From NCBI RefSeq assembly GCF_000384295.1, contig NZ_KB913037.1:8879508-8943507 (forward strand): DNA of 64,000 nt, written 5' to 3'. A model generated the notes under the pieces. The model did not search any database and was not told the DNA's origin. It saw only the letters and a list, made by a program, of their open reading frames with translations. Of this stretch, positions 9,605 through 64,000 are shown piece after piece. Position 1 is the first letter of the stretch, and every line of letters begins with the position of its first letter. This DNA comes from Amycolatopsis balhimycina FH 1894. GTDB lineage: Bacteria > Actinomycetota > Actinomycetes > Mycobacteriales > Pseudonocardiaceae. Both the position numbers and the translations under genes were made by a program.

Positions 9605-9621
9605 CGCCCCTCCCAAGTTGT

Positions 9622-14481: not shown

Positions 14482-14503
14482 TCATGGAGTAGAGGTCGTT
14501 CGC

Positions 14504-49931: not shown

Positions 49932-50220
49932 CTCCGTCGCCGAGCAGGGCGTGCACGAGCAGCGCGATCCGCTCGCGCACCGGCGGCGGCGCCGGCACGG
50001 CGGGCTCCGCGCCGATGGGCGTCACCCGGGAGGGCTCGGCGAGCAGCAGCCGGTCGACGGCCGCGCGGGCGTCGCCGGTTTCCTTGTACCGCACCGCGTC
50101 GGTGAGTACGCCGAGGTCGCGCGTCACCGCGTCCCATTGGGCCGGTGCGAGTGTCCACAAAGGAATTTCGGCGAGCACGTCGAGCGCGTCGGCGGTGGTG
50201 GCCGGGTCGAGGACGGTCAC
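49903..50220 (-). CDS. CATRA system-associated small protein
   Basis: A 105-residue helical protein (DALDVLAEIPLWTLAPAQWDAVTRDLGVLTDAVRYKETGDARAAVDRLLL), the kind of short partner that accompanies CATRA proteins. The GTG at 50220 has AGGTG upstream. Its end overlaps the next gene by 29 bases, so the two proteins are made together and probably bind each other. Function is unknown; the role is inferred from position. Confidence 0.65.
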   Translation of the reverse strand: MTVLDPATTADALDVLAEIPLWTLAPAQWDAVTRDLGVLTDAVRYKETGDARAAVDRLLLAEPSRVTPIGAEPAVPAPPPVRERIALLVHALLGDGGDRRATGTR

Positions 50221-50234
50221 GGGAGCACCTCGCT

Positions 50235-50732
50235 TCACGCGAAGAGGAACACGACGAAGTCGAGCGAGTCGGCGCGCGAGCCCGCCTTCCAGTAGCCCTT
50301 GCCGGTCGCTCGCTGGAACGGCGCCGAACCGGCGCGCAGCAGGTCGATCACCGAGTTCGCGCGGCCGGTCGCGACGCCGATGGCGCTCTGCGGGCCCGCC
50401 GCGAACACCAGGACGACGCCGACCCGCGGCTGCGGGCCGGTGCCGGCGAGCACCGCCTCGACGTCGCGGCGCACCTGGTCGCCGTCCAGGTGGGCGAGGT
50501 CGGCGGGGACGGTGAACTCGACCGGGTCGGGCCGCAGCACCGGTGGCGCCTTCGGCGGCGTCGTCGTGGTCGGGGGCGTGGTGGTCGGCGTCGGCTTCGG
50601 CGGCGGGCTGGACGGCAGCGGCGCGGCCGCCGGCATCGTGCTCAGGCCGACGAGGAACAGCACCAGGAACAGGTCGGCCAGGAGCCAGCCCGCCAGCAGG
50701 GCCAGCCGCATCGGGTCGCGGCGGGCGGTCAC
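50235..50732 (-). CDS. single-span membrane protein with proline-rich linker
   Basis: A 165-residue membrane protein. Residues about 9-32 are one helix (LALLAGWLLADLFLVLFLVG), followed by an extracellular-type PSSPPPKPTPTTTPPTTTTPPKAPP linker and a small alpha/beta domain (EFTVPADLAHLDGDQVRRDVEAVLAG, then IGVATGRANSVIDLLRAG). The domain has a weak resemblance to OmpA-like modules, not secure. The GTG at 50732 overlaps the previous stop (GTGA). Confidence 0.65.
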   Translation of the reverse strand: MTARRDPMRLALLAGWLLADLFLVLFLVGLSTMPAAAPLPSSPPPKPTPTTTPPTTTTPPKAPPVLRPDPVEFTVPADLAHLDGDQVRRDVEAVLAGTGPQPRVGVVLVFAAGPQSAIGVATGRANSVIDLLRAGSAPFQRATGKGYWKAGSRADSLDFVVFLFA

Positions 50733-51823
50733 CGGTGCTCACCCGGCGGCCCGGCGTTGCCCAGCGGCAGCACGCTGTCGTAGACCGCGGGCGGGCTGTC
50801 CAGGCGGTCGAGTGCGTACCGCAGCCGTTCGACGAGCTCGCTGAGCGACTCGGTGCGCTCCCGGAACACCTCGAGCGTCTCGCCGAGCCGTTCGGCCGAG
50901 CGCGCCACCTCCTGCGCGATTTCCCGGTGGCTCTGGGCTTCGGCTTCCGACTTCTGCGTCGCGGCTTCCAGCTGTCCCACCAGGACGCCGATGCGCTCCT
51001 GCAGGCCCCGGCTGTCCGCGTGCATGGCCTTCTGCAGCTCCTCCAACGTCTTGACGGCTTCCGCGGGCGTGGCCAGCGCCTCGGTGGTGCGCCGCAGCTC
51101 CCGCGCGGTCGCCGTCCACTCGTCGATCGCCTCGTGCAGGCGGCTGCCGGGTCCGCTGTCGACCGCTTCGGTGATCTGCCGGGTCGTCTTCTCCAGCGCG
51201 GACGCGAGCGCGGTGCTCGCCGTGCCGAGCCGCGGGGCCAGCCGGGACAGGTCCTTCGCGGTCACCGGTGGCCCGGCCGAACCGGCGGAGGTCAGCAGGG
51301 TGGCCACGGCCAGCAGCCCGCCGAGCTCTTCGCGCTCGTTCTGCCGCGACAGCGACGACGGGACGCGGTGCGCGGCGTGGACGCCGAGCGTCAGGCCGAT
51401 CACGAAGAGCACCGTGAGCGCCACGACCCGCGCCGACTCGCCGAGTGGCGTGACGGCGCCGCCGAACCCGCGTTGCCAGCCGAGGAGGAACGATTCGCCG
51501 CCGCCCGCCGTCTGGTAGGCCTCGAGCGCCGAACGCAGCTGCCACCAGGTCACCGCGACGGGGACGAAGACGAGCACGTCGCGAAAGATCTCGGTGCCCC
51601 GCAGGATGCGCTGCCACCGCGGGGTTTCCCGACGGTGGTCGGGGAGCAGCACCTCGGGCGGGTACGCCCGGACCAGGTCGACGCCGGCGAGGTCGCCGGG
51701 GCTCGAAGCCAGCACCTGGGCCAGGCGGACCAGCGCGTCCTGCCCGGGGCCGGGCGCGGCGCGGTCGGCGAGCGCCGCCAGCCGATCGGCGACGTGCTCA
51801 CGGCTCGGGATGGCTGTGGTCAC
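50729..51823 (-). CDS. membrane coiled-coil protein of the conflict operon
   Basis: A 364-residue protein. Two hydrophobic segments (about residues 88-102 and 135-152) frame a short loop, and about residues 195-345 form long coiled coils (LHEAIDEWTATARELRRTTEAL; LEAATQKSEAEAQSHREIAQEVARSAERLGETLEVFRERTESLSELVERLRY). It resembles the signalling helices of chemoreceptor-like or scaffold proteins but has no known domain. GTGA overlaps on both sides tie it to the neighbouring genes. It may form the membrane platform of the system. Confidence 0.7.
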   Translation of the reverse strand: MTTAIPSREHVADRLAALADRAAPGPGQDALVRLAQVLASSPGDLAGVDLVRAYPPEVLLPDHRRETPRWQRILRGTEIFRDVLVFVPVAVTWWQLRSALEAYQTAGGGESFLLGWQRGFGGAVTPLGESARVVALTVLFVIGLTLGVHAAHRVPSSLSRQNEREELGGLLAVATLLTSAGSAGPPVTAKDLSRLAPRLGTASTALASALEKTTRQITEAVDSGPGSRLHEAIDEWTATARELRRTTEALATPAEAVKTLEELQKAMHADSRGLQERIGVLVGQLEAATQKSEAEAQSHREIAQEVARSAERLGETLEVFRERTESLSELVERLRYALDRLDSPPAVYDSVLPLGNAGPPGEHR

Positions 51824-53580
51824 CAGGTCCTCCTGCCCGCCGCGGAGCCTCGCGGACCGGCGACGTCGTTGCTCTGGAAGTACAGGGCGGCGATGCGCTG
51901 CTCGGCGAGGCGCCGCGCGCGGCCGCGGCCGGCGGCCAGCCAGAGCGCGCGCAGCAGGGCCGGGGCCGGGTCGGGGCCGAGGCGCTCCAGGACCTCCGCC
52001 ATCGTCCGGGCCCGCGTGGCCGACTTGCCGAGCACGATCTCCACCAGCGCGGCGAAGTGGCGGACGGCAGGCTCCTGGTCGACCGGGGCGAGCCGGGTCA
52101 CCGCCTGCACCAGCCCGTGCCGGTTCAGGAATACGTCGAGGGCGTCCCGCCGGTCGCGGGAGCTCTCCTTGCGCTCGGTGAGCACGGCCAGGACGTGCGT
52201 GGCGACCTCGGGTTCGATGTCGTCGGTGCGGTCCAGCCAGTGCAGCAGGTTCGCCGCCGGGATCTCCTCGACGCCGTGGGCGAGGGCGAGCCTGCCGCCG
52301 TGGCTCAGGCCGCCGAACCGGCCGACCGCGCGCAGGAACCCGGTGAGGCCCGCGGTGCCGGTCGGCAGCAGGCCCTCCTGCCCGAGCACGCTGACGATCA
52401 GCGGCTCGTCGAAGACGAGACCGGTCTCGTCCAGCCGGGTTTCCGGGGCGAGCCGGCCGGTGGCGACCCGGACGGCGAGCTCGCGGACCGCGCGGCGGGC
52501 CAGGTCCTCCGCCGTCTTCGTCCCCGCTTGTGCGCGCGCCGCCCGCACCAGGGTGCTGTCCGGCAGCCTGCCGACCGCGGCGACCAGGTGCTCGTCGATC
52601 CGGCCGGAGACGACCACCTGCTGCTCGGTGTCGCTGAGGCCGCCGTCGATCATGCGCCGGAGCAGATCCGCCGCGTCGGCGAGCACCCCCGGCGCGTACT
52701 GGACGCTCTTCGCCCACACCGCGACGCTTTTGGGACCCGACAGCGGTTCCGGCGGCCGCAGCCGCGCGACGCCGTCGACCCCGGACCGCAGGTACCGGGC
52801 CACGATCGCCGCGACCACCGGGCTCGCCGCGGCGGGCGCGGCTGCCGCCGTGTCCAGCCGGACCCGGCGGCGCGCCGAACCGCGCGTCGAGAACTGGTTG
52901 TGGGCCAGGAAGACGACGCGGGGCAGGCCCGCCGCGGTGTCCGCGGCCTCGTGCGTGGCGAAGGTCCACGGCCGGCCGGGCTCCTCGCCGAGGATATCGG
53001 CGAGGGCGCACACCAGCTCCAGCGGCGGCGCGGCGGCGGCGGTCACGGTGAGGTCGTCGACCGGGTTCTCCAGCACCGCGCCGAGCAGGCAGGTGAGCGC
53101 CTCCGGGGGCAGCTGTGCGACGCGCTCGCGGAGCTGGTACAGCCCGTATTCGGCCCACCGCCCCAGTTCCGGGCCGTCGAGCACCGGCAGCACGCCGTCC
53201 TCGGGCAGTTCCGCCGCGTCCCCGGCCCAGCCCTCCCAGTAGGTCAGGCCGAGCGCCTCCGGGGTCGTCAGCGCGCGGCAGGTCAGCACGTGCGCGAGCG
53301 TCGACCCGGCGCGGCCTTCGTCGTCGGCCACCGGGATCTTCCGCAGCAGGGCGTACTGCTCGCCCGCGGCGAAGAAGACGAACCCGTGCTGGGGTTCGGT
53401 TTCGCCGTCGTCGCCGGTGGCCCAGACCAGCTTGCCTAGGCGCCCGTCCCAGACCCGCAGCGCCTCGGCGTCCAGTGACGTCGCCACCGGCCCCACCCCG
53501 CGCTTGCCGGTCAGCGAGCGCGGGGACCAGCGGTAGACGATCTGGTCGATCGTCCCGTGCCGCGTCAGCTGTTCAGTCAT
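51820..53580 (-). CDS. GTPase-associated protein, GAP1-like
   Basis: A 586-residue protein resembling GTPase-associated protein 1: the N-terminus (IDQIVYRWSPRSLTGKRGVGPVATSL) matches the GAP1 N-terminal module and the middle and C-terminal parts are long helical repeats (about residues 220-580). No enzymatic motif is visible. It lies directly behind the GTPase gene, overlapping by eight bases at the chosen ATG (53580; an in-frame ATG lies at 53589). It probably binds or regulates that GTPase. Confidence 0.7.
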   Translation of the reverse strand: MTEQLTRHGTIDQIVYRWSPRSLTGKRGVGPVATSLDAEALRVWDGRLGKLVWATGDDGETEPQHGFVFFAAGEQYALLRKIPVADDEGRAGSTLAHVLTCRALTTPEALGLTYWEGWAGDAAELPEDGVLPVLDGPELGRWAEYGLYQLRERVAQLPPEALTCLLGAVLENPVDDLTVTAAAAPPLELVCALADILGEEPGRPWTFATHEAADTAAGLPRVVFLAHNQFSTRGSARRRVRLDTAAAAPAAASPVVAAIVARYLRSGVDGVARLRPPEPLSGPKSVAVWAKSVQYAPGVLADAADLLRRMIDGGLSDTEQQVVVSGRIDEHLVAAVGRLPDSTLVRAARAQAGTKTAEDLARRAVRELAVRVATGRLAPETRLDETGLVFDEPLIVSVLGQEGLLPTGTAGLTGFLRAVGRFGGLSHGGRLALAHGVEEIPAANLLHWLDRTDDIEPEVATHVLAVLTERKESSRDRRDALDVFLNRHGLVQAVTRLAPVDQEPAVRHFAALVEIVLGKSATRARTMAEVLERLGPDPAPALLRALWLAAGRGRARRLAEQRIAALYFQSNDVAGPRGSAAGRRTW

Positions 53581-54655
53581 CCCGGCCACCGTCCACTCCG
53601 GCCTCGGCGTGGCCGGCCACGCCCTTCATGGCGAGCAGGGCCAGCAGCGGCTTGAGCACCCGCCGCTGGCGGAAGGTCAGTGCCGGGAAGCGCCCGTCCT
53701 CGGCCTGGGTGCCGGTCGCCGACGCGAAGTGCAGCGTCGAGTCCAGGCACTGCTCGGCCGGGGCGAGCCAGCCCGTCGCGCCGCGGGCGGAGAGGTACGC
53801 GTAGACGTCCCGGCTTTCGGCTTCGAGCGTGCTCAGGTCGAACTCCTCGTCCCCGTCGTGGTCCAGCCAGCGGCGCACCAGCTCGGACCGGAACCGCAGC
53901 CGGTCGGCCTTGACCACGACCGACGCCGACGGGATCGGCAGGAACGGCCGGTGCCGCGGGTTGCGGATCCGCTGCAGCTTGCCGAGCGAGACGTCGAAGG
54001 CGTTGTCCCGGGTGGCGGCGGCGTCCGGGCGGACCAGCCGGGGCACGGCCTCGGGGTCGATGACGAACAGCAGCGCGTTCACCGCGCCGATGAACGAGAC
54101 GCCGGGGTCGACGTCCTCCAGGACCTCGCCGGCGACGTCGAAGAAGGTCAGCGCGCAGCGGCGGCCGGTCAGGTCGTTGGTGACGCGGAAGGCGTCGGTG
54201 AACTCGATCTGCTCCCGCGGCGTGGGCCGCAGCTCCCGGCCCGCCATGAACGGCTGCACGACGTCCCGCATGTACTGGTTGTGGACGCGCAGGTCCAGCG
54301 GGTCGACCCGGAGGCCGAGCCGCTTCAGCTGCGCGGACCCGGCCAGCAGCCGCCCGATCATGGCGGCGAGGAGGTGACTCTTGCCCGCGGCGCTCGCGCC
54401 GATCACCCCGACCACGATGCGGTCGTCGTACTCGCCGTAGTCATAGGGCAGGTAGTGCGTGGTGCCGTCACCGGTGCAGACGCGGTAGGCGGCGGTGAGC
54501 CGCATCCGCCGGGCCGATTCGCTTTCCCCGGGCCGGGGCAGGAACGGCGTCGCCTCCCCGGCGTCGTCCAGGGCGACCACCCTGGCCCGCGCCCAGTCGA
54601 GCCGGTGCAGGCAGATCGGGCATTCCACCCGGGCGGAGCGGCGGCGCCCGATCAC
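53573..54655 (-). CDS. P-loop GTPase of the conflict operon
   Basis: A 360-residue TRAFAC-like GTPase. The N-terminus has a CPIC zinc-type pair (12-15). Walker A is GASAAGKS (about 86-93), switch/Walker B is FFDVAGE (about 171-177) and the base-recognising part is VVVKADRL, the NKxD equivalent. It has no signal peptide. The GTG at 54655 overlaps the pseudokinase stop as GTGA, and the GAP1-like gene follows. In named systems such GTPases are the switch that controls effector assembly; that role is inference here. Confidence 0.75.
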   Translation of the reverse strand: MIGRRRSARVECPICLHRLDWARARVVALDDAGEATPFLPRPGESESARRMRLTAAYRVCTGDGTTHYLPYDYGEYDDRIVVGVIGASAAGKSHLLAAMIGRLLAGSAQLKRLGLRVDPLDLRVHNQYMRDVVQPFMAGRELRPTPREQIEFTDAFRVTNDLTGRRCALTFFDVAGEVLEDVDPGVSFIGAVNALLFVIDPEAVPRLVRPDAAATRDNAFDVSLGKLQRIRNPRHRPFLPIPSASVVVKADRLRFRSELVRRWLDHDGDEEFDLSTLEAESRDVYAYLSARGATGWLAPAEQCLDSTLHFASATGTQAEDGRFPALTFRQRRVLKPLLALLAMKGVAGHAEAGVDGGRDD

Positions 54656-55632
54656 AGGGCCGCCACCACGACCACGACGATCAGGGCGGCCACGAGCAGC
54701 AATCCGGTCAGCAGCGCCGGAAAAGACGACGGCGGCGCGGCGTCGGGCCGGCGCGGCAGGCTCTGCCGGAACGCGCGCTGCTCGTGCCGGAGCCGCTCGA
54801 AGTTCCGCCGTGCCTCGACTTCCCGCTCGGGCATCGGCGACGCGGAACCGGCGCGCGTCACCGGGTCGGGCAGCCGGCGGCGGCGCAGCAGCTCGCGGGC
54901 TTCCGGCACCTTGCGCGGGTCGGCGGAGAAGACGTTCTCCAGCAGCACCCGCAGCGGGGTGTCCTGCAGGTCAAGCCGCTCGGCGGCTTCGGCGGGCCCG
55001 GCCACGGCCTCCCCGGTGTAGAGCCGGTAGACCACCAGCCCCGCGGCGGCGACGTCGTCGGCCGGGTGGGCGGGCGTGGCGGGCCGCGGCGGGCAGCAGG
55101 AGCACGGCGGCCGGGGGCCGCCGGCCAGCGTGGCGTGCTCGAAGTCGGTGAGCTGCAGGCCCTTGCCGTCCCAGCGGAGCGTGTCGAAGCCGATGCGGCC
55201 GTGCACGATCCGGGTCATCGCCAGGTAGCGCAGGATGCGCAGCAGGTCGTCGACGACCGGGCCGGTCCGCGCCGGGTCCCAGGGCAGGTCGCTTTCCCAG
55301 TGGCGCAGCGGTTCCCCGCGGCAGGTGGCGACCAGGAACGGCGGCGCGTGGTCGGGGTTGTGCCCGACCAGCCGGGTCAGCTGCGCCGGATAACGGGTGT
55401 CGGTCAGCCGCCCGGTGAGCCGGTCGAGCATCGTGATCTCGCGCCGCAGCGCCTCGCCGGCCCCGGCGCGGTCGAGGGCCTCCTTGACGACGATCGGTTC
55501 GTTGAGCCGGTCGTGCGCGCGGCGCGCGCAGGCGAGCCCACCCAGCACGCGGTGCCCCTCGAACTCGACGTCATACGGTTGGTAACCCCGGCCGATGTGC
55601 CCGGCGATGATCAGCTGGAGCCGTTCGGTCAT
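54652..55632 (-). CDS. tail-anchored protein pseudokinase
   Basis: A 326-residue protein kinase fold that should not phosphorylate. The beta-3 Lys is present (VVKEAL, Lys50), but the catalytic loop reads IVHGRIGFDTLRW, so the HRD Asp, the following Lys and the Asn are replaced, and DFG has become DFE (163-165). A CSCC cluster (177-180) replaces the activation segment. A single helix at the C-terminus (LLTGLLLVAALIVVVVVAAL) is a tail anchor in the membrane. First gene of the leftward operon; its ATG at 55632 is 211 bases from the CHAT gene. Confidence 0.8.
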   Translation of the reverse strand: MTERLQLIIAGHIGRGYQPYDVEFEGHRVLGGLACARRAHDRLNEPIVVKEALDRAGAGEALRREITMLDRLTGRLTDTRYPAQLTRLVGHNPDHAPPFLVATCRGEPLRHWESDLPWDPARTGPVVDDLLRILRYLAMTRIVHGRIGFDTLRWDGKGLQLTDFEHATLAGGPRPPCSCCPPRPATPAHPADDVAAAGLVVYRLYTGEAVAGPAEAAERLDLQDTPLRVLLENVFSADPRKVPEARELLRRRRLPDPVTRAGSASPMPEREVEARRNFERLRHEQRAFRQSLPRRPDAAPPSSFPALLTGLLLVAALIVVVVVAAL

Positions 55633-55693
55633 CCATGCCCCTCGTGAATCGTGACTCGCGCACCGTAGGTCGGAATACCCGGCCCGACGATCC

Positions 55694-55707
55694 CTACTGC
55701 TCAGTAG
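55694..55707. promoter_or_regulatory. operator-like dyad in the shared divergent promoter
   Basis: CTACTG-CT-CAGTAG has perfect 6-bp arms. It is in the middle of the 211-bp spacer between the two head-to-head conflict operons and could bind one regulator for both. No regulator gene is beside them. Confidence 0.5.
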
Positions 55708-55843
55708 TCTCCGAACGGACGAGTGTTTCCTAACGTTCCGGTCGTCCTGTCCGTCAGTTGTAACGCGCATCCTCCGACGACCGATTGGACACCACGTCAA
55801 TGACCGTTTTCGCGTTCTGGCGCGCGCTGATTCGGGACGGGGA

Positions 55844-56692
55844 GTGGTCGGCCTGACCTACGACGAACTGCGGCGGGAAGGCGCTTTCTCGTTGCTCGGA
55901 AACCTCTTCCCGGACCAGGCGAAGGCGCGTGGCCTGCTGGAGGACGCCGGAGTCGGGATCGGGGCCGTGCCGCCGATGGCGCCGTCGGCCCCGGCCGAGT
56001 ACTGGCGCACGGTCTGTCGGGAAATTGCCGACGGACGGCATCCGACGACCCTGGAAAAACTGCTGGACGCGGCCATCGGCTGGTATCCGGCGAGCGCCGA
56101 ACTGAAAGCATTGCGCGGGCGCGGCCGGGCCACCTCCACGCTTCGCGTCCTCTGTTTGCTCGCCTCGCCCGCCGATACGTCGCGAATTCGGCTGGAAGTC
56201 GAACACCGCGTTCTCCAGGAGATCGCGCGCACGAGCCCGCGGCTCGAGGTGACCGTCCTCCCGGCCACCCGGACCCGCGACATCGTGCCCGGCCTGCTGC
56301 GCGCCAAGCCCGACATCCTGCACTTCGCCGGCCACGGCACCGCCGAGGGCGAACTGGTCTTCGAGGACGACCGCGGCTTCGCCCGCCCGGTGTCGGCGCA
56401 GGTGCTGGCCGAGGTGCTCGACGTCGTTCCGCCGCTGCTGTGCGTGGTGCTGAACTCCTGCTACACCGGGGCCTACGCCGACGTCCTGGCCGGCCGCGCG
56501 GAAGCCGTCACCGGCTCGCGGGTGCCGCTCGGCGACCGCTGCGCGATCGCGTTCACCGAAGGCTTCTACACCGGGCTCGCCGGCGGCGAGGAGCTCGACG
56601 TCGCCTACCGGGCCGGCCTGGCCCAGATGCGGCTTTCGCGGTGCGACACCGGCAAGATGTGCTTCCGGTCCGGCGCCGGGCGGGCCGTGTGA
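55844..56692 (+). CDS. EAD-CHAT caspase-like protease
   Basis: A 282-residue protein. Residues 1-90 form an effector-associated domain (LTYDELRREGAFSLLGNLFPDQAKARGLLED, ending IADGRHPTTLEKLLDAAIGWYP), the helical module that recruits effectors by homotypic binding. Residues about 98-280 are a CHAT (HetF-associated caspase-like) protease with the catalytic dyad His164 in FAGHG and Cys206 in LNSCYTG. Cleavage target unknown; in this family it may kill the host or cut a toxin. The GTG at 55844 has GGGGA upstream. First gene of the rightward operon. Confidence 0.85.
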   Translation: MVGLTYDELRREGAFSLLGNLFPDQAKARGLLEDAGVGIGAVPPMAPSAPAEYWRTVCREIADGRHPTTLEKLLDAAIGWYPASAELKALRGRGRATSTLRVLCLLASPADTSRIRLEVEHRVLQEIARTSPRLEVTVLPATRTRDIVPGLLRAKPDILHFAGHGTAEGELVFEDDRGFARPVSAQVLAEVLDVVPPLLCVVLNSCYTGAYADVLAGRAEAVTGSRVPLGDRCAIAFTEGFYTGLAGGEELDVAYRAGLAQMRLSRCDTGKMCFRSGAGRAV

Positions 56693-57318
56693 CCGAACCG
56701 CGTGTGACCGAAGCGCGTGTGAACGAACCGCGAGAGGACCTGGCGGGCCTCACCCCGGACGAGCTGTTCGACCGCGGCCGCCAGCACGGCATGGACCGGA
56801 CGAACAGCGGCGCCGACGGCCCGGCGGTCACCACGGCCGCGTCGTTCTGGGTCGCCGAAGGGGGCAGCCGGGTGTGCCCGGTGTGCCGGCACACCTTCCG
56901 CATCGGCGAGCGGGTGTGGGTGGACCACGCGGTGGCCGGGAAGCCGGCCCGCGTCGTGCACGCGAGCCGGGAACTGCCGTGTCACGGCGAAACCGTCGAA
57001 GGCGGCACGGACGACCCGGAACTGGCCGCGCGGTTCTTCGCCGCCGTCGACGCGAGCAACCCGCTCAAGGGCGGTGTCCGGCTGAAGGCGGACTCGCCGC
57101 AGGTGGCCAAGCTCGTCCACCGCGTGAAGTGCGCCGGCTGCGGGCATTCCCTGCGGCCGCTGGAGGTCATCGTGTTCTGCCCCTGTGACCCGGAGAAACC
57201 GCGCTGCCGGCTGGCCGTGCACAACGACCGGGCCCGCGGCGTCAGCTGTTTCGACGAGTGGCTGACCGGCCGTCCGCTCGAGCACTGCCCGATGAGCTAC
57301 CGCAAGAGGAAGCCGTGA
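56689..57318 (+). CDS. zinc-cluster protein with RING-like C-terminal half
   Basis: A 209-residue protein. One Cys pair lies in RVCPVCRHTFRIGERVWV, with later His/Cys (VVHASRELPCHGE). The C-terminal part has CAGCGHSL, FCPCDP, CRLAVHNDRARG, CFDEW and HCPMSY; the order C-x2-C, C-x-C, C-x4-H, C, C allows a cross-brace or treble-clef zinc domain like RING. That, and its place beside E1, E2 and JAMM genes, make a ubiquitin-ligase-like (E3) role plausible but unproven. GTGA overlaps at both ends. Confidence 0.6.
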   Translation: MTEPRVTEARVNEPREDLAGLTPDELFDRGRQHGMDRTNSGADGPAVTTAASFWVAEGGSRVCPVCRHTFRIGERVWVDHAVAGKPARVVHASRELPCHGETVEGGTDDPELAARFFAAVDASNPLKGGVRLKADSPQVAKLVHRVKCAGCGHSLRPLEVIVFCPCDPEKPRCRLAVHNDRARGVSCFDEWLTGRPLEHCPMSYRKRKP

Positions 57319-58319
57319 CGCGCTACCGACGGCACGCGGAGATTCCCGGCTGGCACCAGGACGCGCTCACCGAGGCGACGGCTGTCGTGATCGGCGTCGG
57401 CGCGCTCGGCACGGAGACCGCGCGGCTGCTGGCCCAGGCCGGTGTCGGCAGGCTCGTGCTGTGCGACCCGGACGACGTCGACGAGTCGAACCTCAGCCGG
57501 GGCGCGCTGTTCACGCCCGCCGACGTCGGCAGGCCCAAGGCCGAGGCCGCGGCGGCGGCGCTGACCGCGCTCGTGCCCGGCCTCCGGGCCGAGGCCCGGC
57601 ACGCCGAGCTGTCGGCCGGGGTCGGCCTCGCCGAACTGCGGTCCGCCGACCTCGTCCTGAGCTGCCTGGACAGCATCGCGGCCCGGGTGAGCCTGACCCG
57701 GCGGTGCACCCTCGTCGGTGCCGGGCTGCTCGACGCGGGCACGCACCCGTGGGGCGGCGAGGTCCGCCACTACGTCCCGGGCGGCGCCTGCTTCGGGTGC
57801 GGCCTCACCCCGGCCGAGCGGGAGACCGCGGACGACCCGTGGAGCTGCGCGCGGCCGGTGGCGGCGGCGAGCCACGGCGCGTCGGCCCCGGTGTCCGCGC
57901 TGACCGCGGCCTGGCTCACGACCACGGCGTTGAGAGTCCTTTTCGGACTCCCGGAACCGGCCGGGATCACCCGGGTCGAACCGGTGTCCGGCACGGCGTA
58001 CCGGCTGGCGGCCGAGCGCGACCCGGACTGCCCGCTGCACGAGCGGATCGCGCCGGGGTCGGTCAGCCGCACCCCGGTCGCCGCCGGCGGCCGGGTCGGC
58101 GAGCTGCTCGCCCTGGTGGCGGCCGACGAGATCGCGCTGGGCTGGAACCCGTTCGGCACTCCGCTGCCGACCACGATCCGCCTGCGGGACGCCGCCCCGG
58201 ACGCCACCCTCGCGAGCCTGCGGGTCGCCCCGCGGGAGCTGATCCCCGTCGTCGTCCCGGGTGACCCGGCCCGGACGCGTTATCTGGAGCTGGCCGCCGA
58301 AGGAGAAGGAAACCGATGA
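57315..58319 (+). CDS. E1-like (ThiF/MoeB family) activating enzyme
   Basis: A 334-residue ThiF-fold adenylating enzyme. Residues about 25-33 are VIGVGALGT (nucleotide-binding), Asp51 in LCDPDDVDESNLSRG positions the substrate and ATP, and LDSIAAR follows. Zinc ligands look like Cys159/Cys162 (CFGC) and Cys239/His242 (DCPLH); Cys178 in DPWSCARP is at the place of the ThiF-type catalytic Cys. It should adenylate the C-terminus of a ubiquitin-like protein and pass it to the E2. Overlaps its neighbours by four bases on each side. Confidence 0.85.
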   Translation: MTRYRRHAEIPGWHQDALTEATAVVIGVGALGTETARLLAQAGVGRLVLCDPDDVDESNLSRGALFTPADVGRPKAEAAAAALTALVPGLRAEARHAELSAGVGLAELRSADLVLSCLDSIAARVSLTRRCTLVGAGLLDAGTHPWGGEVRHYVPGGACFGCGLTPAERETADDPWSCARPVAAASHGASAPVSALTAAWLTTTALRVLFGLPEPAGITRVEPVSGTAYRLAAERDPDCPLHERIAPGSVSRTPVAAGGRVGELLALVAADEIALGWNPFGTPLPTTIRLRDAAPDATLASLRVAPRELIPVVVPGDPARTRYLELAAEGEGNR

Positions 58320-59758
58320 AAGAACTGGCGGCGGCACTGGCGCAGTGCTTCCGGGACGAGCAGGGCGCCCGCTCGTTCCTGACCGAGATGGGCTACCCCG
58401 TCGACCGGCTCCAGCCGTTCGGCAGCGCGCGGCAGTTCTGGGCGGAGGTCGTCTCCGAGCTGGAGCTGGGCATCCTGGCCGACGGCATCCCGACGATCGT
58501 GGTCGCCGCCGCCGAGTGGTATCCCGGCCACGCGGTGCTCCAGGAGCTGGCGGCGAAGCAGGCCGCGGTCGACGAAGCCCGGGACGCCCCGGCAGGCCGC
58601 TCGGCGGAACCGCCGGTGGAGGAGGACGGCGACTGCTTCGCGATCCTCGCGATCAACACGACCCAGCACGCGGAGTTCCTCGACGTCGTGCGGTCGGTCG
58701 CCGACCCGGACGCGGAGCTGCTGTACGCGACGCGCCAGATCTCCGCGGTCCGGATCCAGGACCCGGGCGCGAGCGCGGGCCAGGTGGCCGCCCGGATCGA
58801 GGAGGAGCTGGCCGCGCGGCAGATCAGCGCGGACGTGAGCTACGCCAACTACGCCTTCCGGCCGTACCTGCTGGCCAGCCTGGTGGTCTACGGCCCCGAC
58901 GGCGCGCCGTACGAGCTGCGCGGGGTGCCGGCCAGCACGCCGGTGCGGGACATCCCGTTCGCGGTGCTCAACCACTACGACGACGAGGCCGTGCGCAACC
59001 GGCGTGGCCAGTTCATGGAGACCACCGTCGACCTGGTCGACGAGGACGGCACGCCGCACCGGCTCGACCCGAACCGCAGCCTGCACGAGAACGGCGTCAC
59101 CGACGGCGCGTCCATGCGGGTCGGCGCCCGGGCGACGGCGGGCAGCGGCGTCGGCCAGACGATGGAGTGGTTCGACCGGGCCCGGGCGCAGATCGACCTG
59201 TTCGCCCAGCGGCACGAAGAGTTCACGGTCACCAAAACCGACGATCCCGACCTGCCGACGCTGTTCGAGATCGAGATCCGGTCGCCGGGGTTCGCCCCGC
59301 CGCCGGAGGCCGGGGCGGAACCGGTCCTGATCGACCGCCACCGGCTGCGGATCATGCTGACCCGGGAGTTCCCGCGGCGGGCGCCCGCGGTGCAGTGGCG
59401 GTCGGAGGTCTTCCACCCCAACATCGTCCCGGCCTGGCGGGGCGATGTGCCCAAGGGCGCGGTGTGCCTCGGCCCGCTGATGGACGCCTACCGCCCCGAC
59501 CTCGACTTCGCCGTGCTGTGCCAGCTGCTCGTGGACATGGCGGGCTACCGCAACTACGAAGCCCGGACGCTGGGCCGCTGGGAAGAGACCGAGGGGTACG
59601 TCAACATTCCCGCGGCCACCTGGGCCCGGTCCGAGCACGGGCAGGAACGGATCCTGGCCATCGGCGGCATCCCGTTGCCGCCGCCGGACGACGACCCCGG
59701 CGGTGCGGCCGGCCGGCCGATCCCGCTGTGGGTCGAACCGTGGGGAGCCGGCGAATGA
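58316..59758 (+). CDS. EAD-Ubl-E2 fusion
   Basis: A 480-residue fusion. Residues 1-80 are an EAD module like that of the CHAT protein (FWAEVVSELELGILADGIPTIVVAAAEWYPG); about 105-180 is a further small domain; 185-272 is a ubiquitin-like beta-grasp (SLVVYGPDGAPYELRGVPA, then LVDEDGTPHRLDPNRSL, ending SMRVGARA); 315-425 is an E2 (UBC) fold with RHRLRIMLTREFPRRAPAVQW, FHPNI and catalytic Cys384 in KGAVCLGPL. No free diGly tail follows the Ubl, so another Ubl or an internal use must be assumed. Preceded by AAGGAGAAGG-like SD. Confidence 0.85.
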   Translation: MKELAAALAQCFRDEQGARSFLTEMGYPVDRLQPFGSARQFWAEVVSELELGILADGIPTIVVAAAEWYPGHAVLQELAAKQAAVDEARDAPAGRSAEPPVEEDGDCFAILAINTTQHAEFLDVVRSVADPDAELLYATRQISAVRIQDPGASAGQVAARIEEELAARQISADVSYANYAFRPYLLASLVVYGPDGAPYELRGVPASTPVRDIPFAVLNHYDDEAVRNRRGQFMETTVDLVDEDGTPHRLDPNRSLHENGVTDGASMRVGARATAGSGVGQTMEWFDRARAQIDLFAQRHEEFTVTKTDDPDLPTLFEIEIRSPGFAPPPEAGAEPVLIDRHRLRIMLTREFPRRAPAVQWRSEVFHPNIVPAWRGDVPKGAVCLGPLMDAYRPDLDFAVLCQLLVDMAGYRNYEARTLGRWEETEGYVNIPAATWARSEHGQERILAIGGIPLPPPDDDPGGAAGRPIPLWVEPWGAGE

Positions 59759-60780
59759 CCGCGGAGATCGTGCTCTACAAGGGAACGAACCAGACGTACT
59801 TCGGCCGGCTGTCGATGGACCCGATCCTGCGGGAGCTGCTGAGCAGGCACGTGGACACGAGCGACCCGAAGATCCGGTTCGCGCTGGTGTTCCACCGGGC
59901 GGCGGAGGCGGTGGCCGACGGCTCGCAGCTGGTCAACCTGCTGCCGACGGTGACCGAGGTCGACGTCGTGATGCTGCGGGGCAGCAAGATGGTGGCGCGG
60001 ACCCGGGGTTCGGTCGCCGAGCTGTTCGGCCCGGTGATCCAGCGGCTGGTCGGGCGGATCGACCCCGACGAGGACAGCTGGGCGTTCCGGATCAGCCACC
60101 CGGTGCTCGACGGCTCGGGCGAGCAGCGGCGCCCGCCGAAGGTCGAGGGGGCGATCGACGTCGACCTCGACACCGCGCGGCCGCTGCCGTTCAGCGTGAG
60201 CAGGCTCGACGAACCGGGCATGGAGACCGTCGACCCGGCGGAGCTGGGCCTCGACCCGGCGGAGCTGAGCACGATCAACGTGCTGCTGCCGGCGCGGGCG
60301 CGGCGGATGCTGGTCGCCGACCTGCCGCTGTCGCGCCAGGTCGAGGAGGGCGGGTTCTTCCTCGGCCGGATCCGGACCGTCGACGGGGACGTCCCGCGCT
60401 ACCTCGTCGAGATCACCGACGTCACCCCGGCCGAGGGATCCGGGGCGGGCAGCGGGCACTTCACCTTCACCAGCGACTCGTTCAGCGCGGTGAACCGGCT
60501 GCTGGCCGAGCGCGGCAAGGACGAGGTGCTGGCCGGCTGGTACCACACGCACCTGTTCTCCGCGACGCGCCGGATGGGACTGTCCGATGTGGACGTCGAC
60601 ACGCACTTCTCCACCTTCCGGCGGCCGTGGCAGGTCGCGGGGCTGCTCAACCTGACCGACGACGAACGCGTCCTGCGCTGCTACGGCCGTGTGGCGGACG
60701 CGATGAAGGAATGCAAGCTATGGGTGTGCGATGACGGCGACCGATACCGCGGCGCGGGTACTCGGCTGGAGCGCGAGTGA
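59755..60780 (+). CDS. JAB/JAMM metallopeptidase (deubiquitinase-like)
   Basis: A 341-residue protein. The C-terminal half is a JAB1/MPN domain: VEEGGFFLGR with the catalytic Glu198, and GWYHTHLFSATRRMGLSDVDVDTHF with zinc ligands His264, His266 and Asp280 and Ser277. The gap between the second His and Ser is 10 instead of the usual 7. The N-terminal 180 residues (SRHVDTSDPKIRFALVFHRAAEAVADG) are unrecognised. It probably removes or processes the Ubl and may supply the mature C-terminus. It overlaps the next gene by 50 bases. Confidence 0.85.
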   Translation: MTAEIVLYKGTNQTYFGRLSMDPILRELLSRHVDTSDPKIRFALVFHRAAEAVADGSQLVNLLPTVTEVDVVMLRGSKMVARTRGSVAELFGPVIQRLVGRIDPDEDSWAFRISHPVLDGSGEQRRPPKVEGAIDVDLDTARPLPFSVSRLDEPGMETVDPAELGLDPAELSTINVLLPARARRMLVADLPLSRQVEEGGFFLGRIRTVDGDVPRYLVEITDVTPAEGSGAGSGHFTFTSDSFSAVNRLLAERGKDEVLAGWYHTHLFSATRRMGLSDVDVDTHFSTFRRPWQVAGLLNLTDDERVLRCYGRVADAMKECKLWVCDDGDRYRGAGTRLERE

Positions 60781-61579
60781 GCCGTCGGCGCCCCTGCCAC
60801 GGGGTGACTTGACCGGCGCCGCGGGGCTGGCCGATCCGGGCCGGGACGTCACCGCGGCGGCCGCGCGGCTGGCCGCGGTGACCGCGGCCCGGCTGCGGCT
60901 GCCGTCCCCGCCGCTGGGCGACCGCGGCCCGGTGGGGCCGGGACCGGTCCTGCTGGCGGCGGTGATCGGCGCGCGGACGCGGCCGCGTGAGGCCCTCGCC
61001 GTGGCGGCGGCGGTGCCGCGCGCGGGCTCGGCGTTCGACCGGCTGGCGCGCCACGGCGTGGTGGCCCCGGCGGTGGCGCGGCTGACCGGCCCGCTGCGCG
61101 CGGCCGTACTCGACGCCTCTCCGCTCACCGGCCTGTTCGGCACGCCGTCCCGTGCCGGCGAGCCCGCGGCGGAAGAGGAACTGGAACGCCTGCTCGCGCA
61201 CGCGGACGGGCGGACGCTCGCCGCGGTGGAGCTCGCCGGGGTCCCGGCCGACGCGGCCCAGGCCCGCTGGCGCGGTGACCTGCTGGACGGGTTCCGGCTC
61301 GCGGACCGCGCGTTCGTGCTCGACGTCTACGAGAAGGCGTTGCGGTTCCACGGCGCGGAACACCGCGAGCGGCTCGCCGAGGCGGTCCGCGACAACGGGG
61401 AGCTGGCCGAGGCGACGGCGGCGTGGTGGCGTCCCCTCGCCGCGCTGGAGCGCTCACACCGGCAGCTGCTGCGGGCCCGCCCGGGTCTCGTCGGCTATCC
61501 GGCCGGGATCGACTTCGCGCGTCGCCGGGCCCGGCTGGCCGCGATGGTCCGCGAAGCGTTCGAGAGGAGGCGGTCATGA
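60731..61579 (+). CDS. helical hypothetical protein of the conjugation locus
   Basis: A 282-residue Ala/Arg/Leu-rich protein, nearly all helix, with no motif I know. Residues about 148-172 (AEEELERLLAHADGRTLAAVELAG) and 180-260 form amphipathic helices. It begins inside the JAMM gene (50-bp overlap from the ATG at 60731) and ends in an ATGA overlap with the AAA+ gene, so it is made with them and may be an adaptor for the ATPase. Unrecognised. Confidence 0.6.
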   Translation: MTATDTAARVLGWSASEPSAPLPRGDLTGAAGLADPGRDVTAAAARLAAVTAARLRLPSPPLGDRGPVGPGPVLLAAVIGARTRPREALAVAAAVPRAGSAFDRLARHGVVAPAVARLTGPLRAAVLDASPLTGLFGTPSRAGEPAAEEELERLLAHADGRTLAAVELAGVPADAAQARWRGDLLDGFRLADRAFVLDVYEKALRFHGAEHRERLAEAVRDNGELAEATAAWWRPLAALERSHRQLLRARPGLVGYPAGIDFARRRARLAAMVREAFERRRS

Positions 61580-63375
61580 GCACGGGAATCCGGCTGCGGC
61601 TGGAGATCCGCGGTCCCACGGACCGGATCGAGTTCCTCGGGACGGCCCGGGACAAGCCGCTGGGCGAGGCGCTGCGGGACTCGCCGTGCCGTCCGCTCGA
61701 CCCCGTGCCCGGCACCTGGGCGGACCTGCCGATCGGGGACTTCGACTTCGAGTTCGTCCTCGCCGCACCACCCCCGGAGGGCACTCCGCTCGCCGGGCCG
61801 CGGACCCGGGAGCACCCGGAGACACTCACCGAGGAACAGGCGACCCGGCTCGCCTACGGCGCCGAAGTCGCCGATGCCGCGTCCTTGCTGCGGGCCGGGC
61901 AGTCGGTGCTCGTGGTGTGCGACAAGATCGTCGTCCCGTACCTGGCCGAGCACGTCGTGCTCCAGGCGGGGCGCGAGCCGCGGCTGCTCGAAGCGGGCGG
62001 GCCCGAGGACACCGACGGCGACGCCTCGCCGGGCGCGCTGGGCATGGGCGGCGGTGCGCAGCAGAGCCTGCGGCAGCGGCTGCTCAACCAGCTGCGCGGC
62101 ATCCTGCGCGAGCTGAAGGACGGCCAGGTGCTCGTCGTCCCGCACCTCGACCTTCTCGGCGGAGGCCAGGACGCGGCCCTGCCGAACGAGGCCCGCGAGC
62201 TCATCGAACTGCTCTACAGCGCCGGCGACGTCGTGCTGCTCGGATTCGTCGACCCGTCGCTGCCGCTGCCGGAGGTGCTGGCCGCGCGGTTCAGCACCCG
62301 GCTCGCGCTGGAAGGCACGCCGCGCCAGGTGCCGATCCCGGGCACCGGTGAGCATCAGCCGATCCAGAAGGCGCTGATCACCCGCGACGAGGCCGCGCAC
62401 TTCGCCGGGCTCGACGACACCGACATGTACAAGTTCCTCGCCGGGCTGAACCCGGTGCGGCTGCGGCACGCGCTGCGCTATGCGTTGCAGCGCTACGAAG
62501 GCCGCGTCGACGCGACCGTCAACGACCTGCGCGACACCATCCGCACCTTCAAGGCCCAGCAGTCGTCGAACTTCGAGATCCCCGACGTCCAGTGGGAGGA
62601 CATCGGCGGCTACGAAGAGGTGAAGGAGGCACTGGCCCGGACGCTGGACACGATGGACCGCAGCCGCACGCTCCCGCAGGAGGACGAGCACCTGCGCGGC
62701 GAGCTGACCCCGCGCGGGTTCATCTTCCACGGCGAACCGGGCACCGGGAAGACGTTGTTCGCCAAGGCGATCGCGAACAAGTTCAACGCCACCATCCAGA
62801 TCGTCTCCGGCCCGGAGGTCACCAACAAGTACGTCGGGGAAGGGGAACGCCGGATCCGCGAGCTGTTCGCGGAGGGCCGCCGCAACGCGCCGTCGGTGAT
62901 CGTGTTCGACGAGATCGACTCGATCGCCGCACGGCGCACCGGCGGCGACGACGGCGGCAGCCGGGCCGGCAACGCGATGGTCGCGCAGATCCTCACCGAG
63001 ATGGACGGCTTCCGCCCGGACGTCCAGCTGCTGGTGGTCGGCACGACCAACCGGCTGTCGCTGATCGACCCGGCGCTGCTGCGGCCCGCCCGGTTCGTGG
63101 GGTTCCACATCGGGCTCCCGGACGCCCAGGCCCGCCGCGGCATCATCCAGGTGCACGCGCGCCGGTACCGGGTCTCCGTCGACGGCGTCCTCGAAGCCCT
63201 GACGCACGCGACCGACGGCTGGAACGGCGACCAGATCCGCGCCCTGTTCCGCGATGCCTACGTCGGGGAGAAGTTCGACGACCGGCCAGCGGACGCCTAC
63301 CAGCTCGGCGAGCTCGTCGGGCAGCACCTCACGGCACGGCGGCAGCGGCTGGCCGCGGAACGGCGGGAAGCATGA
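61576..63375 (+). CDS. AAA+ ATPase, CDC48/FtsH-like, with degenerate N-terminal half
   Basis: A 599-residue AAA+ protein. The second half (from QWEDIGGYEEVKEAL at about 339) is a standard classical AAA module: Walker A GEPGTGKT (386-393), NKYVGEGE pore region, Walker B VIVFDEID (441-448) and DPALLRPARF with the Arg finger. The first half (SVLVVCDKIVVPYL; GQVLVVPHLDLLGGG) looks like a domain that lost its Walker A. It should unfold or extract tagged proteins. The MoxR ATPase follows by ATGA overlap. Confidence 0.85.
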   Translation: MSTGIRLRLEIRGPTDRIEFLGTARDKPLGEALRDSPCRPLDPVPGTWADLPIGDFDFEFVLAAPPPEGTPLAGPRTREHPETLTEEQATRLAYGAEVADAASLLRAGQSVLVVCDKIVVPYLAEHVVLQAGREPRLLEAGGPEDTDGDASPGALGMGGGAQQSLRQRLLNQLRGILRELKDGQVLVVPHLDLLGGGQDAALPNEARELIELLYSAGDVVLLGFVDPSLPLPEVLAARFSTRLALEGTPRQVPIPGTGEHQPIQKALITRDEAAHFAGLDDTDMYKFLAGLNPVRLRHALRYALQRYEGRVDATVNDLRDTIRTFKAQQSSNFEIPDVQWEDIGGYEEVKEALARTLDTMDRSRTLPQEDEHLRGELTPRGFIFHGEPGTGKTLFAKAIANKFNATIQIVSGPEVTNKYVGEGERRIRELFAEGRRNAPSVIVFDEIDSIAARRTGGDDGGSRAGNAMVAQILTEMDGFRPDVQLLVVGTTNRLSLIDPALLRPARFVGFHIGLPDAQARRGIIQVHARRYRVSVDGVLEALTHATDGWNGDQIRALFRDAYVGEKFDDRPADAYQLGELVGQHLTARRQRLAAERREA

Positions 63376-64000
63376 GCTGGCCGGAAGCCACCGAGAAGCT
63401 CGTCCACCGGCTCGACGCGATCCGGCAGACCCTCGAGGCGCGGTTCGTCGCCCGCACCGAGGCGGTCCGGCTGCTCCTGCTGGCCGCCGTGTGCCGCGAG
63501 CACCTGCTGCTGCTCGGCCCGCCGGGCACCGCCAAGACCGAGCTGATCACCCGGTTCGCCGAGCTGATCGACGCCCGCCACTTCCGCTACCTGCTGACGC
63601 GGTTCACCGAGCCCGCGGAGATCTTCGGGCCGCTGGACTTCCAGCGCTTCCGCGCGGGCGAGTACCACGTGCGCACCAGCGGGATGCTGCCCGAGGCGAA
63701 CGTGGTGTTCCTCGACGAGGTGTTCCACGGCAGCAGCGCGATCCTCAACACGCTGCTCACCGTGCTCAACGAACGGCGGTTCGACAACGGCTCGCAGACC
63801 ACGGTGACCCCGCTGGTCAGCCTGTTCGGCGCGGCCGCCGAACTGCCGGACGATCCGGCGCTCGCCGCGTTCGCCGACCGGTTCCTGCTGCGGCTGCGGG
63901 TGGCGCCGGTCGCGCGGCTGCGGCTGCCGGAGCTGCTGGACCGCGGCTGGACCCAGGAGCAGGAGGCGCTCGCCGGCCGGCACCGGGCGGAGCAGGCGGT
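63372..64000 (+). CDS. MoxR family AAA+ ATPase, C-terminus outside the window
   Basis: N-terminal 209 residues of a MoxR-type ATPase: Walker A GPPGTAKT (49-56), FTEPAEIFGPLDF, Walker B VVFLDEV (111-117) and NTLLTVLNERRFDNG. Such ATPases usually work with a von Willebrand factor A protein, which I expect just past 64000. ATG overlap with the AAA+ gene. It completes the visible Ubl-conflict operon; the end of the operon cannot be seen. Confidence 0.85.
   Translation, partial: MSWPEATEKLVHRLDAIRQTLEARFVARTEAVRLLLLAAVCREHLLLLGPPGTAKTELITRFAELIDARHFRYLLTRFTEPAEIFGPLDFQRFRAGEYHVRTSGMLPEANVVFLDEVFHGSSAILNTLLTVLNERRFDNGSQTTVTPLVSLFGAAAELPDDPALAAFADRFLLRLRVAPVARLRLPELLDRGWTQEQEALAGRHRAEQA

Follow-up and report, generated by a model that had tools for sequence, protein, structure and literature searches.

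Kaur et al. (2020, PMC7159879) predicted, in the sections consulted here, a Ubl-bearing FtsH ternary system, the complex type of which contains a JAB peptidase, an E1, a RING-type E3, an EAD1-Ubl-E2 fusion and an EAD1-caspase-like effector. In the same sections, the FtsH-type AAA+ component combines an active C-terminal AAA domain with a catalytically inactive one at the N-terminus, the MoxR partner often shows the P-loop GXXXTAKS, and a divergent vWA protein carries a beta-propeller at its N-terminus. According to these sections, a peptide-processing set, which includes a zincin-like metallopeptidase, is present in most systems of the Ubl type, and DO-GTPase systems show a kinase-bearing theme in actinobacteria, in which the kinase is active.

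The window (the whole 64,000-nt stretch of DNA analysed, part of an Amycolatopsis-type chromosome) carries eight co-directional genes at 55844..64000, joined by 4-nt overlaps at six of the seven junctions, as the preliminary description had it; the locus continues for about 8 kb past the end of the window. Judged by its sequence against the consulted sections of PMC7159879, the locus is a Ubl-bearing FtsH ternary system. In common with the complex type, it encodes an AAA+ ATPase, a MoxR ATPase, a propeller protein in the vWA position, JAB, E1, a zinc protein in the RING position, an EAD1-Ubl-E2 fusion, an EAD1-caspase-like effector, fvmX proteins, and a radical-SAM enzyme with a peptide, and it matches the family-specific Pfam models fvmX1, fvmX2, fvmX3, fvmX7, fvmJAB_N, fvmYukDl_N, bpMoxR and fvmRadSAM-pep. 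This composition was already predicted in the consulted part of that paper, and the locus is therefore not the undescribed system that it was at first taken for. The radical-SAM enzyme and peptide were considered as an oddity of the complex variant, an idea that was dropped because the same source treats them as typical of the Ubl type. As had been expected of a genuine system, these genes stand together in other genomes too. What sets the locus apart from the described FtsH ternary type is its neighbour to the left on the - strand, a dedicated operon for a DO-GTPase, a kinase-like protein and membrane-type proteins that runs divergently from it and that the preliminary description had not linked with it; the consulted sections of PMC7159879 do not report a linkage of the Ubl system with a GTPase operon.

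The combination of E1, E2, Ubl and JAB is shared with Bil/Bub operons, and the E1 matches BilD (5.3e-7) and the solved Citrobacter BubCD (1.5e-6). Here, by contrast, Ubl is fused to E2, and an EAD1 adaptor, a caspase-like effector, two AAA+ proteins and a putative propeller-vWA protein are added. Membership in Bil (BilA-D, with a separate ISG15-like Ubl) was ruled out, BilD being the only Bil model among the best 25 of 31 E1 matches. The E1 also matches PADLOC E1-E2 models (best 1.1e-21), a likeness to type II CBASS; in contrast to Cap2/Cap3, however, E1 and E2 are separate genes here and E2 bears the Ubl. Type II CBASS membership was ruled out as well, with no CD-NTase/nucleotidyltransferase family in the ten PADLOC-scanned proteins and no fused E1-E2.

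Components of the Ubl operon

The first gene (55844..56692, + strand) encodes the EAD1-CHAT (caspase-like) effector of 282 aa, with Pfam matches to EAD1 (1.4e-10) and CHAT (4.2e-11), a match to PDB 8tl0 (E 8e-12), and catalytic H164 and C206 invariant in three aligned sequences. The zinc protein (209 aa; 56689..57318, +) has eight Cys/His residues invariant in six aligned proteins. Prok-RING_1 was matched in four of the six (best E 0.0031) and Zn_ribbon_4 likewise in four (best E 0.00071), none above cut-off; its structure model (pLDDT 47) was unusable, and a search of the RING-like alignment against solved structures gave an oxidoreductase as the best match (E 0.19) and RING finger protein 24 at 0.24. 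By its cysteine pattern, this protein is a candidate RING-type E3. The E1-like ThiF-family enzyme (334 aa; 57315..58319, +; Pfam ThiF 3.2e-42) matches solved ThiF in the PDB (5.1e-26) and retains R62, K75, D119, C159/C162, C178 and C239 as invariant residues in six aligned sequences, with C178 as the putative thioester cysteine.

The EAD1-fvmYukDl_N-Ubl-E2 fusion (480 aa; 58316..59758, +) was delimited by Pfam, alignment and the predicted E2 fold, with Ubl at about residues 184-276 and E2 at 278-450. Pfam scored EAD1 at 6e-14 and fvmYukDl_N at 4e-8, with YukD (0.0057) below cut-off. E2 carries H367-P368-N369 and C384, the active-site residues being invariant in seven aligned sequences, and its fold was recovered by structure prediction and fold search. 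The JAB/JAMM metallopeptidase (59755..60780, +; fvmJAB_N domain, 1.5e-29) shows the motif E198, H264-T-H266, S277 and D280 in all eight aligned rows, and its nearest solved relatives are Rpn11 (E 0.0017). It is followed by the fvmX1 protein of FtsH ternary systems (60731..61579, +; Pfam fvmX1 3.5e-67).

The FtsH/CDC48-like AAA+ ATPase (599 aa; 61576..63375, +; Pfam AAA 8.3e-37) has its active domain at residues 383-507, with P-loop and Walker B intact, preceded by a conserved N-terminal region that has no P-loop and no Pfam AAA match. NCBIfam models for CDC48, PAN and FtsH scored 199, 190 and 164 bits, all below cut-off, and no M41 peptidase was matched in the protein. The HbYX-type C-terminus, a proteasome-docking motif, was absent by eye in five aligned AAA+ sequences. 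The MoxR AAA+ ATPase (63372..64000, continuing to window-equivalent 64520, +; bpMoxR 1.7e-77) has the P-loop GPPGTAKT, in which T replaces the final S of GXXXTAKS.

Genes beyond the window are given in L003 coordinates, to which 55493 is added to obtain the window position. These encode fvmX2 (9036-9830), fvmX3 (9832-10098), a TPR-like protein (10098-10790), fvmX7 (10787-12337) and the putative propeller-vWA protein (12334-15450), the three fvmX assignments coming from Pfam; on the - strand follow the peptide (15457-15666; Pfam fvmRadSAM-pep) and the radical-SAM enzyme (15663-16706; Pfam Radical_SAM). The propeller protein gave WD40-type propeller matches and no Pfam vWA match, and a degenerate DDT-type motif was seen by eye.

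Most of the identities first proposed for the eight genes have held: CHAT, E1, Ubl-E2, JAB, AAA+ and MoxR through Pfam, key residues and the E2 fold, with the zinc protein RING-like by its cysteine pattern only. Of the folds that were to be recovered by structure prediction, that of E2 was, while E1 and CHAT rest on sequence.

The divergent GTPase operon

A divergent intergenic region of 211 bp (55633..55843) separates the two operons; its length is 211 bp in G557, 203 bp in G469 and 205 bp in G614. A scan of 55500-55900 for sigma-70-like promoters gave no match, and neither did a plasmid search with Ubl-E2 as query. On the - strand, the operon encodes a kinase-like protein with a C-terminal hydrophobic segment (326 aa; 54652..55632), a DO-GTPase2-like GTPase (360 aa; 53573..54655), a protein in the GAP position (589 aa; 51820..53589), up4, with hydrophobic segments and a coiled coil (364 aa; 50729..51823), and the small up5, with an N-terminal hydrophobic segment (165 aa; 50235..50732). 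Further - strand genes for CATASP (49903 to 50220 or 50238; Pfam 4.6e-18) and a CATRA-N/CATRA-C protein (48330-49931; 1.2e-50 and 7.6e-28) were left out of the conserved block because, outside the window genome, they (48330..50238) adjoin it in G557 alone.

The GTPase scored 25.6 bits against DO-GTPase2, just under the cut-off of 27, and two orthologues scored 29.4 and 39.8. The kinase-like protein gave no Pfam match, with weak matches in two orthologues (Pkinase 0.02, Kinase-like 0.25); the HRD aspartate is replaced in three aligned sequences, and judged by eye the protein is a predicted pseudokinase. With the DO-GTPase GAP1-N2 systems of PMC7159879, as far as consulted, the operon shares a DO-GTPase2 homologue, a protein in the GAP position and membrane-type proteins. 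It differs from them in its kinase-like protein without the HRD aspartate, in a private GTPase clade tied to the Ubl locus, and in the lack of a GAP1-N2 match. No GAP1 family was found in the GAP-position protein by hmmscan, and GAP1-N2 (PF20013) had no match at the locus up to E 10 in G000, G557, G469 and G614, which rules out GAP1-N2 membership; the same search was positive elsewhere, over cut-off, in G481.

The operon flanks the Ubl locus in all four Ubl-locus genomes found in the family (three genera) by a single-protein contig scan that finds only close relatives. This association might be fortuitous, the GTPase operon being an independent defence system that became a neighbour by chance, since systems of this kind are often found close to one another; the consulted part of PMC7159879 notes such clustering as a generic trait of conflict operons. 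We regard this as a serious possibility, though not as our expectation. In its favour, kinase-like protein and GTPase occurred without Ubl-conjugation genes in 11 of 11 other loci read, seven of them with a GAP-like protein. Of the four genomes of family f92 with a Ubl locus, three gave no match to the GTPase at E 1e-10, and the remaining one had an ordinary copy on another contig, so the Ubl system in general can do without this GTPase; the G1006, G799 and G1062 loci lie on short contigs (16-29 kb) with partial neighbourhoods. Against chance, a tree of 20 proteins groups the GTPases that adjoin the Ubl locus in a single clade (support 100/100), and the 386 family genomes that lack the Ubl locus showed no copy comparable to them (at most five first-look candidates scored per genome). 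Gene order and orientation are kept across the three genera, whereas the flanking genes, called with a simple purpose-made caller, are not syntenic; up4 and up5 occurred in none of the 11 other loci. Strong up4 matches were found in three of 341 genomes, plus one weak match, with at most five first-look candidates scored per genome. The GTPase/membrane-protein operon appears to be inherited jointly with the Ubl locus, and the synteny may reflect a single ancestral joining.

Proposed release of the Ubl and proposed mechanism

The A273-x-A275-G276 motif between Ubl and E2 was invariant in seven aligned sequences and present in an N-containing eighth. Of the low-confidence stretches in the structure model, the one that contains the motif (273-278) has three invariant residues, the loop at the E2 active site (386-389) has two, and the remaining five have none. 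The motif probably sits in a flexible linker before E2, and its end at G276 is a candidate cleavage site between the two domains, although its invariance could be structural instead and the low pLDDT may come from the seven-sequence alignment. The strand and helix order predicted for the Ubl part fits a beta-grasp. A sequence-profile search of the Ubl alone against solved structures gave no significant ubiquitin fold (best E 0.35, a surface protein), and the fold search barely probed the Ubl and fvmYukDl_N parts, since E2 filled the matches of the 480-residue model. A redesigned ubiquitin aligned with the Ubl at E 1.6, too weak to count, the alignment ending at A275 against its residue 76. Given how ubiquitin ends, that alignment would place G276 at its last glycine.

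We lean slightly towards reading the locus as a ternary conflict system of the Ubl-bearing FtsH/MoxR-vWA kind, present here in an actinobacterial version that has a dedicated DO-GTPase membrane module as its partner and that works as follows. Keeping the system off and sensing a trigger would be the joint task of the AAA+ and MoxR-vWA-propeller chaperones and of the GTPase/kinase-like module at the membrane. JAB would free EAD1-Ubl from E2 by cutting after G276, a step suggested by the invariant AxAG in its probably flexible linker and the intact JAMM site. E1 would adenylate G276 and E2 would carry the Ubl glycine on C384; the catalytic residues of both are conserved, and the RING-like protein may help pass the Ubl to targets. 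The EAD1 adaptor on tagged targets would cluster EAD1-CHAT by like-with-like binding and so activate CHAT at or near the target, leading to local cleavage or a cell-death response, and the AAA+ unfoldase may remodel the conjugates or the complex. JAB release and EAD1-mediated CHAT recruitment follow Kaur et al. (2020, PMC7159879, as consulted); the role suggested for the GTPase half is an addition of the present analysis. In outline, tagging coupled to a protease and an unfoldase, probably in a conflict system, is what had been envisaged for these genes from the outset, and the evidence agrees with it.

EAD1 scored over cut-off in its own genome only in the EAD1-CHAT and EAD1-Ubl-E2 genes. The second EAD1 protein at the locus is not CHAT in two genomes of family f92, where it is EAD1-TIR (G980) or EAD1-EAD2 (G1006). 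The idea that effector and Ubl-E2 carry EAD1 copies matched in sequence in every genome was dropped: pairing was clear only in G1006 (59% identical), the two copies in the window share only 25% identity, and no clear cis pairing emerges from the EAD1 tree for the window genome's family. The low identity and the tree count against the proposed mechanism. As a tentative extension, the two operons may form one machine in these actinobacteria, in which a membrane GTPase/pseudokinase switch gates the covalent tagging of chosen proteins with EAD1-Ubl, a death-domain-like adaptor, and the conjugate is a platform for an interchangeable EAD1 effector (CHAT, TIR, EAD2 adaptor).

Alternatively, the Ubl is never released and acts as a docking or self-regulating domain, the E1-E2 relay conjugating something else (a protein C-terminus, in the manner of type II CBASS) or building a scaffold. 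Ubl was fused to E2 in all eight sequences read, its tail ends in A-G rather than G-G, and type II CBASS, as described in the source consulted, conjugates its own nucleotide cyclase; yet the tail is invariant within a low-confidence linker and the adjoining JAB has a complete JAMM motif, and we consider non-release rather doubtful. In another reading, tagging would chiefly send proteins for degradation by the CDC48/FtsH-like AAA+ and the host proteasome, with CHAT as a side branch. This option, raised in the consulted part of PMC7159879, is consistent with the CDC48 and proteasome-activating ATPase models scoring the AAA+ best and with the Rpn11 kinship of JAB. It is improbable in view of the EAD1 common to Ubl and effector, the variation of the effector (TIR, EAD2) across genomes and the missing HbYX-type C-terminus in the aligned AAA+ sequences.

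Implications

The literature searched yielded no experimental test of the 2020 prediction, in which, according to the consulted sections of PMC7159879, E1, E2, a RING-type protein and JAB are linked to a caspase-like effector via a shared adaptor domain. According to the same sections, no exchange takes place between the MoxR-vWA and DO-GTPase cores, which set systems apart; the GTPase/Ubl pairing bears on this statement. The present analysis adds the linkage with the divergent GTPase operon, the AxAG candidate site, and the alternative EAD1 partners (TIR, EAD1-EAD2) in f92. The invariant AxAG offers a precise candidate site for cleavage and charging, and the dedicated GTPase half is a candidate input to the Ubl system. 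The predicted arrangement resembles animal death signalling, which joins ubiquitin and caspases.

Gene content and identity of the Ubl locus

The eight plus-strand genes at 55844-64000 were initially described as encoding an EAD-CHAT protease, a RING-like zinc protein, an E1, an EAD-Ubl-E2 fusion, a JAMM peptidase, a helical protein, and AAA+ and MoxR ATPases, almost all joined by 4-nt overlaps. All eight genes are present in one direction, with EAD1 as the EAD domain, a JAB as the peptidase, and fvmX1 as the helical protein; the 4-nt overlap was found at six of the seven junctions, and Pfam backs seven of the eight gene descriptions, the RING-like protein being the one without such backing. 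The genome is a single contig of 10.86 Mb. Past the window end, its plus strand carries the remainder of the MoxR gene and the genes for fvmX2 (Pfam, 7.7e-70), fvmX3 (Pfam, 2.7e-19), a TPR-like protein, fvmX7 (Pfam, 5.5e-34), and a 1038-aa protein with matches to WD40-type propellers, labelled propeller-vWA below. A radical-SAM enzyme is encoded convergently to the locus, beside a 69-aa peptide on the minus strand (L003:15457-15666 of the locus record; fvmRadSAM-pep, 4.9e-28) that ends in QMLCG in four aligned sequences. The peptide's terminal Cys-Gly might itself be a target of modification or even of activation.

FtsH ternary systems were defined by Kaur, Burroughs, Iyer and Aravind in 2020 (PMC7159879). 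Passages of that paper describe a complex variant that combines helical proteins and a caspase-like effector fused to EAD1 with a Ubl-conjugation set, the latter made up of JAB, E1, an EAD1-Ubl-E2 protein, and a prokaryotic RING-type E3. They also report a peptide-processing set in most complex Ubl-type systems. The window locus matches this variant and is an intact example of the rare class predicted there, a system already known on paper. In the same passages the AAA+ component is named FtsH-type. The window AAA+ protein (61576-63375) scored higher against CDC48 (199 bits) and proteasome-activating ATPase (190 bits) models than against FtsH (164 bits), none over cut-off, and gave no match to the M41 peptidase; the higher CDC48 and proteasome-activating ATPase scores would suit a segregase working on conjugates. 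That JAB frees EAD1-Ubl and that EAD1 brings effectors to conjugates are proposals already made in passages of PMC7159879, which list linked systems of three kinds (peptide-processing, diversity-generating retroelements, and DUF397-related genes), a GTPase operon not being among them. The present analysis adds the pairing with a divergent GTPase operon and the Ubl tail. In the openly accessible literature searched, covering titles and abstract openings together with passages of PMC7159879, PMC8195603, and PMC11354881, we found neither a report of this pairing nor an experimental study of the Ubl-type class.

To examine prevalence, we searched for fvmJAB_N, which was found in one of 396 genomes sampled across the phylum (the own genome), in five of 394 across the class (the own genome and four of one other family, f92), in 4 of 390 own-family genomes from three genera, and in 4 of 35 f92 genomes, the same four as in the class sample; it was found in none of the 14 control genomes in any of these searches. 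These counts cover the phylum of the own genome; passages of PMC7159879 report the class in planctomycetes and myxobacteria as well. A scan of genome contigs with Ubl-E2 gave its closest match in Amycolatopsis vastitatis (95% identity), whose record L005 and genome G557 have equal match identities, appear to be one genome, and were counted once. The only other match of the scan, partial and 30% identical, lies in a spirochaete MAG (L006:4915-5088) and corresponds to the fvmYukDl_N region of Ubl-E2. A plasmid search with Ubl-E2 gave no match.

The Ubl tail and EAD1 partners

The Ubl ends in A273-x-A275-G276, which is invariant in seven aligned Ubl-E2 sequences, the other six being 30-95% identical to that of the window; A-x-A-G also occurs in an eighth sequence, one containing N-runs. 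The predicted model from the seven sequences (pLDDT 74.8, pTM 0.40) includes an E2 fold, preceded by a Ubl region in the order strand-strand-helix-strand, with the last strand at 266-272 and the first E2 helix beginning at 278. Residues 273-278 have pLDDT below 50. Five of the seven such stretches contain no invariant residues, and besides 273-278 the only one that does is the E2 active-site loop, 386-389. The low pLDDT may alternatively come from the shallow alignment; as modeled, an invariant, probably flexible linker ending in Gly is what one would expect of a site for processing and charging. With such a site at the tail, cleavage of Ubl-E2 would occur at G276. Conserved residues are E198, HTH, and SxxD of JAB in 8/8 aligned rows, HPN and C384 of E2 in 7/7 sequences, and the adenylation residues, C159, C162, C178, and C239 of E1 in 6/6. 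The locus is predicted to carry out conjugation.

EAD1 was over cut-off in the own genome in CHAT and Ubl-E2 only; seven more matches were below cut-off, as were matches in 5 of 14 control genomes. Ubl-E2 retains EAD1 while the EAD1 partner changes, since the f92 genome G980 encodes an EAD1-TIR protein (TIR, 2.5e-28) some 2.2 kb beyond fvmX7, from which a called minus-strand ORF separates it; G1006, also of f92, has an EAD1 and EAD2 protein between E1 and Ubl-E2 (EAD2, 24.5 bits; cut-off, 23.8); and a search of the four f92 loci, two of which end at a contig edge on one or other side, yielded no CHAT orthologue. The EAD1 copies of the window CHAT and Ubl-E2 are 25% identical, CHAT proteins of different genera being 51% identical, and the EAD1 tree is mostly without resolution, which argues against a simple sequence pairing of the two copies. 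Recruitment would proceed through EAD1-EAD1 contact, with activation of the protease.

The divergent GTPase operon

Left of the Ubl locus, on the minus strand, lie genes for a kinase-like protein (54652-55632), which lacks the HRD aspartate in three aligned sequences, a DO-GTPase2 relative, a GAP-position protein, and two proteins with hydrophobic segments, up4 and up5. By tblastn, these five genes have the same order and orientation in the four own-family Ubl-locus genomes found (the window genome, G557, G469, and G614), separated from CHAT by 203-211 bp. CATASP and CATRA genes (48330-50238, minus strand) lie beyond the five and neighbour the block in just two genomes, that of the window and G557. 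The C-terminal region of the CATRA-N/CATRA-C protein is akin to the middle of the G980 EAD1-TIR protein (28% over 145 aa).

Compared with their window counterparts, the proteins of G469 and G614 had identities, respectively, of 65 and 45% for the GTPase, 54 and 32% for the kinase-like protein, 39 and 33% for the GAP-position protein, 49 and 39% for up4, and 40 and 38% for up5. For the Ubl locus they were 60 and 56% (E1), 63 and 58% (AAA+), 61 and 52% (MoxR), 52 and 40% (Ubl-E2), 53 and 37% (JAB), 53 and 39% (CHAT), 46 and 32% (fvmX7), and 47 and 34% (propeller-vWA), so the ranges overlap, the mean of the GTPase half being slightly lower. Of 34 genes called in the flanks of G469 and G614, five matched the 90-kb window region, namely the system's own radical-SAM gene and four weak matches (33-50%) at non-flanking places. 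When the flanks of these two genomes were compared with each other, a single G469 gene had matches, to two genes of G614 (33% over 683 aa and 42% over 105 aa), of which one is located on the opposite side of the block. The block has therefore been kept and its surroundings largely have not.

GTPase matches at E 1e-15 or better occurred in 47 of 390 own-family genomes (at most five first-look candidates scored per genome). The top scores, 804, 769, 476, and 276 bits, belong to the four Ubl-locus genomes, the next being 174, and in a tree of the best 20 of 50 matches a branch supported at 100/100 sets these four GTPases apart from the others. Strong up4 matches were present in 3 of 341 sampled own-family genomes, each with a Ubl locus, besides one weak 31-bit match (G454); the up4 of G557, 92% identical to the window's, is missing from these matches, the genome presumably not being in the sample. 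At 11 other GTPase loci chosen from the best matches (nine own-family, two f92), a kinase-like gene was near the GTPase in all 11 and a GAP-like gene in seven, and none had up4 or up5, or CHAT, RING-like, E1, E2, or JAB genes. One of these loci (L068) has a weak MoxR match, and another (L069) has vWA and CATRA-protein matches.

A GTPase match at 1e-10 is present in 16 of the 35 f92 genomes. Of the four with a Ubl locus, G799 is the sole one among these 16, and its copy is an ordinary one of 157 bits that lies on a different contig. A second, independent pairing of a Ubl locus with a GTPase is hinted at by sequence matches in G980 (L030:4193-8445, minus strand), where a P-loop protein with a DO-GTPase2 match (E 0.042) and a protein of 1069 aa with a GAP1-M match (E 0.028), both matches being sub-threshold, are encoded to the left of vWA; neither protein was usefully matched by profiles built from GTPase and GAP-position proteins of the window type. 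The next protein resembles a membrane vWA protein by eye. The distribution of the GTPase in f92 and the own family therefore makes the pairing a feature of one lineage, perhaps reflecting one ancestral joining retained since. The GTPase half would have a role in the system, whose purpose would be defence.
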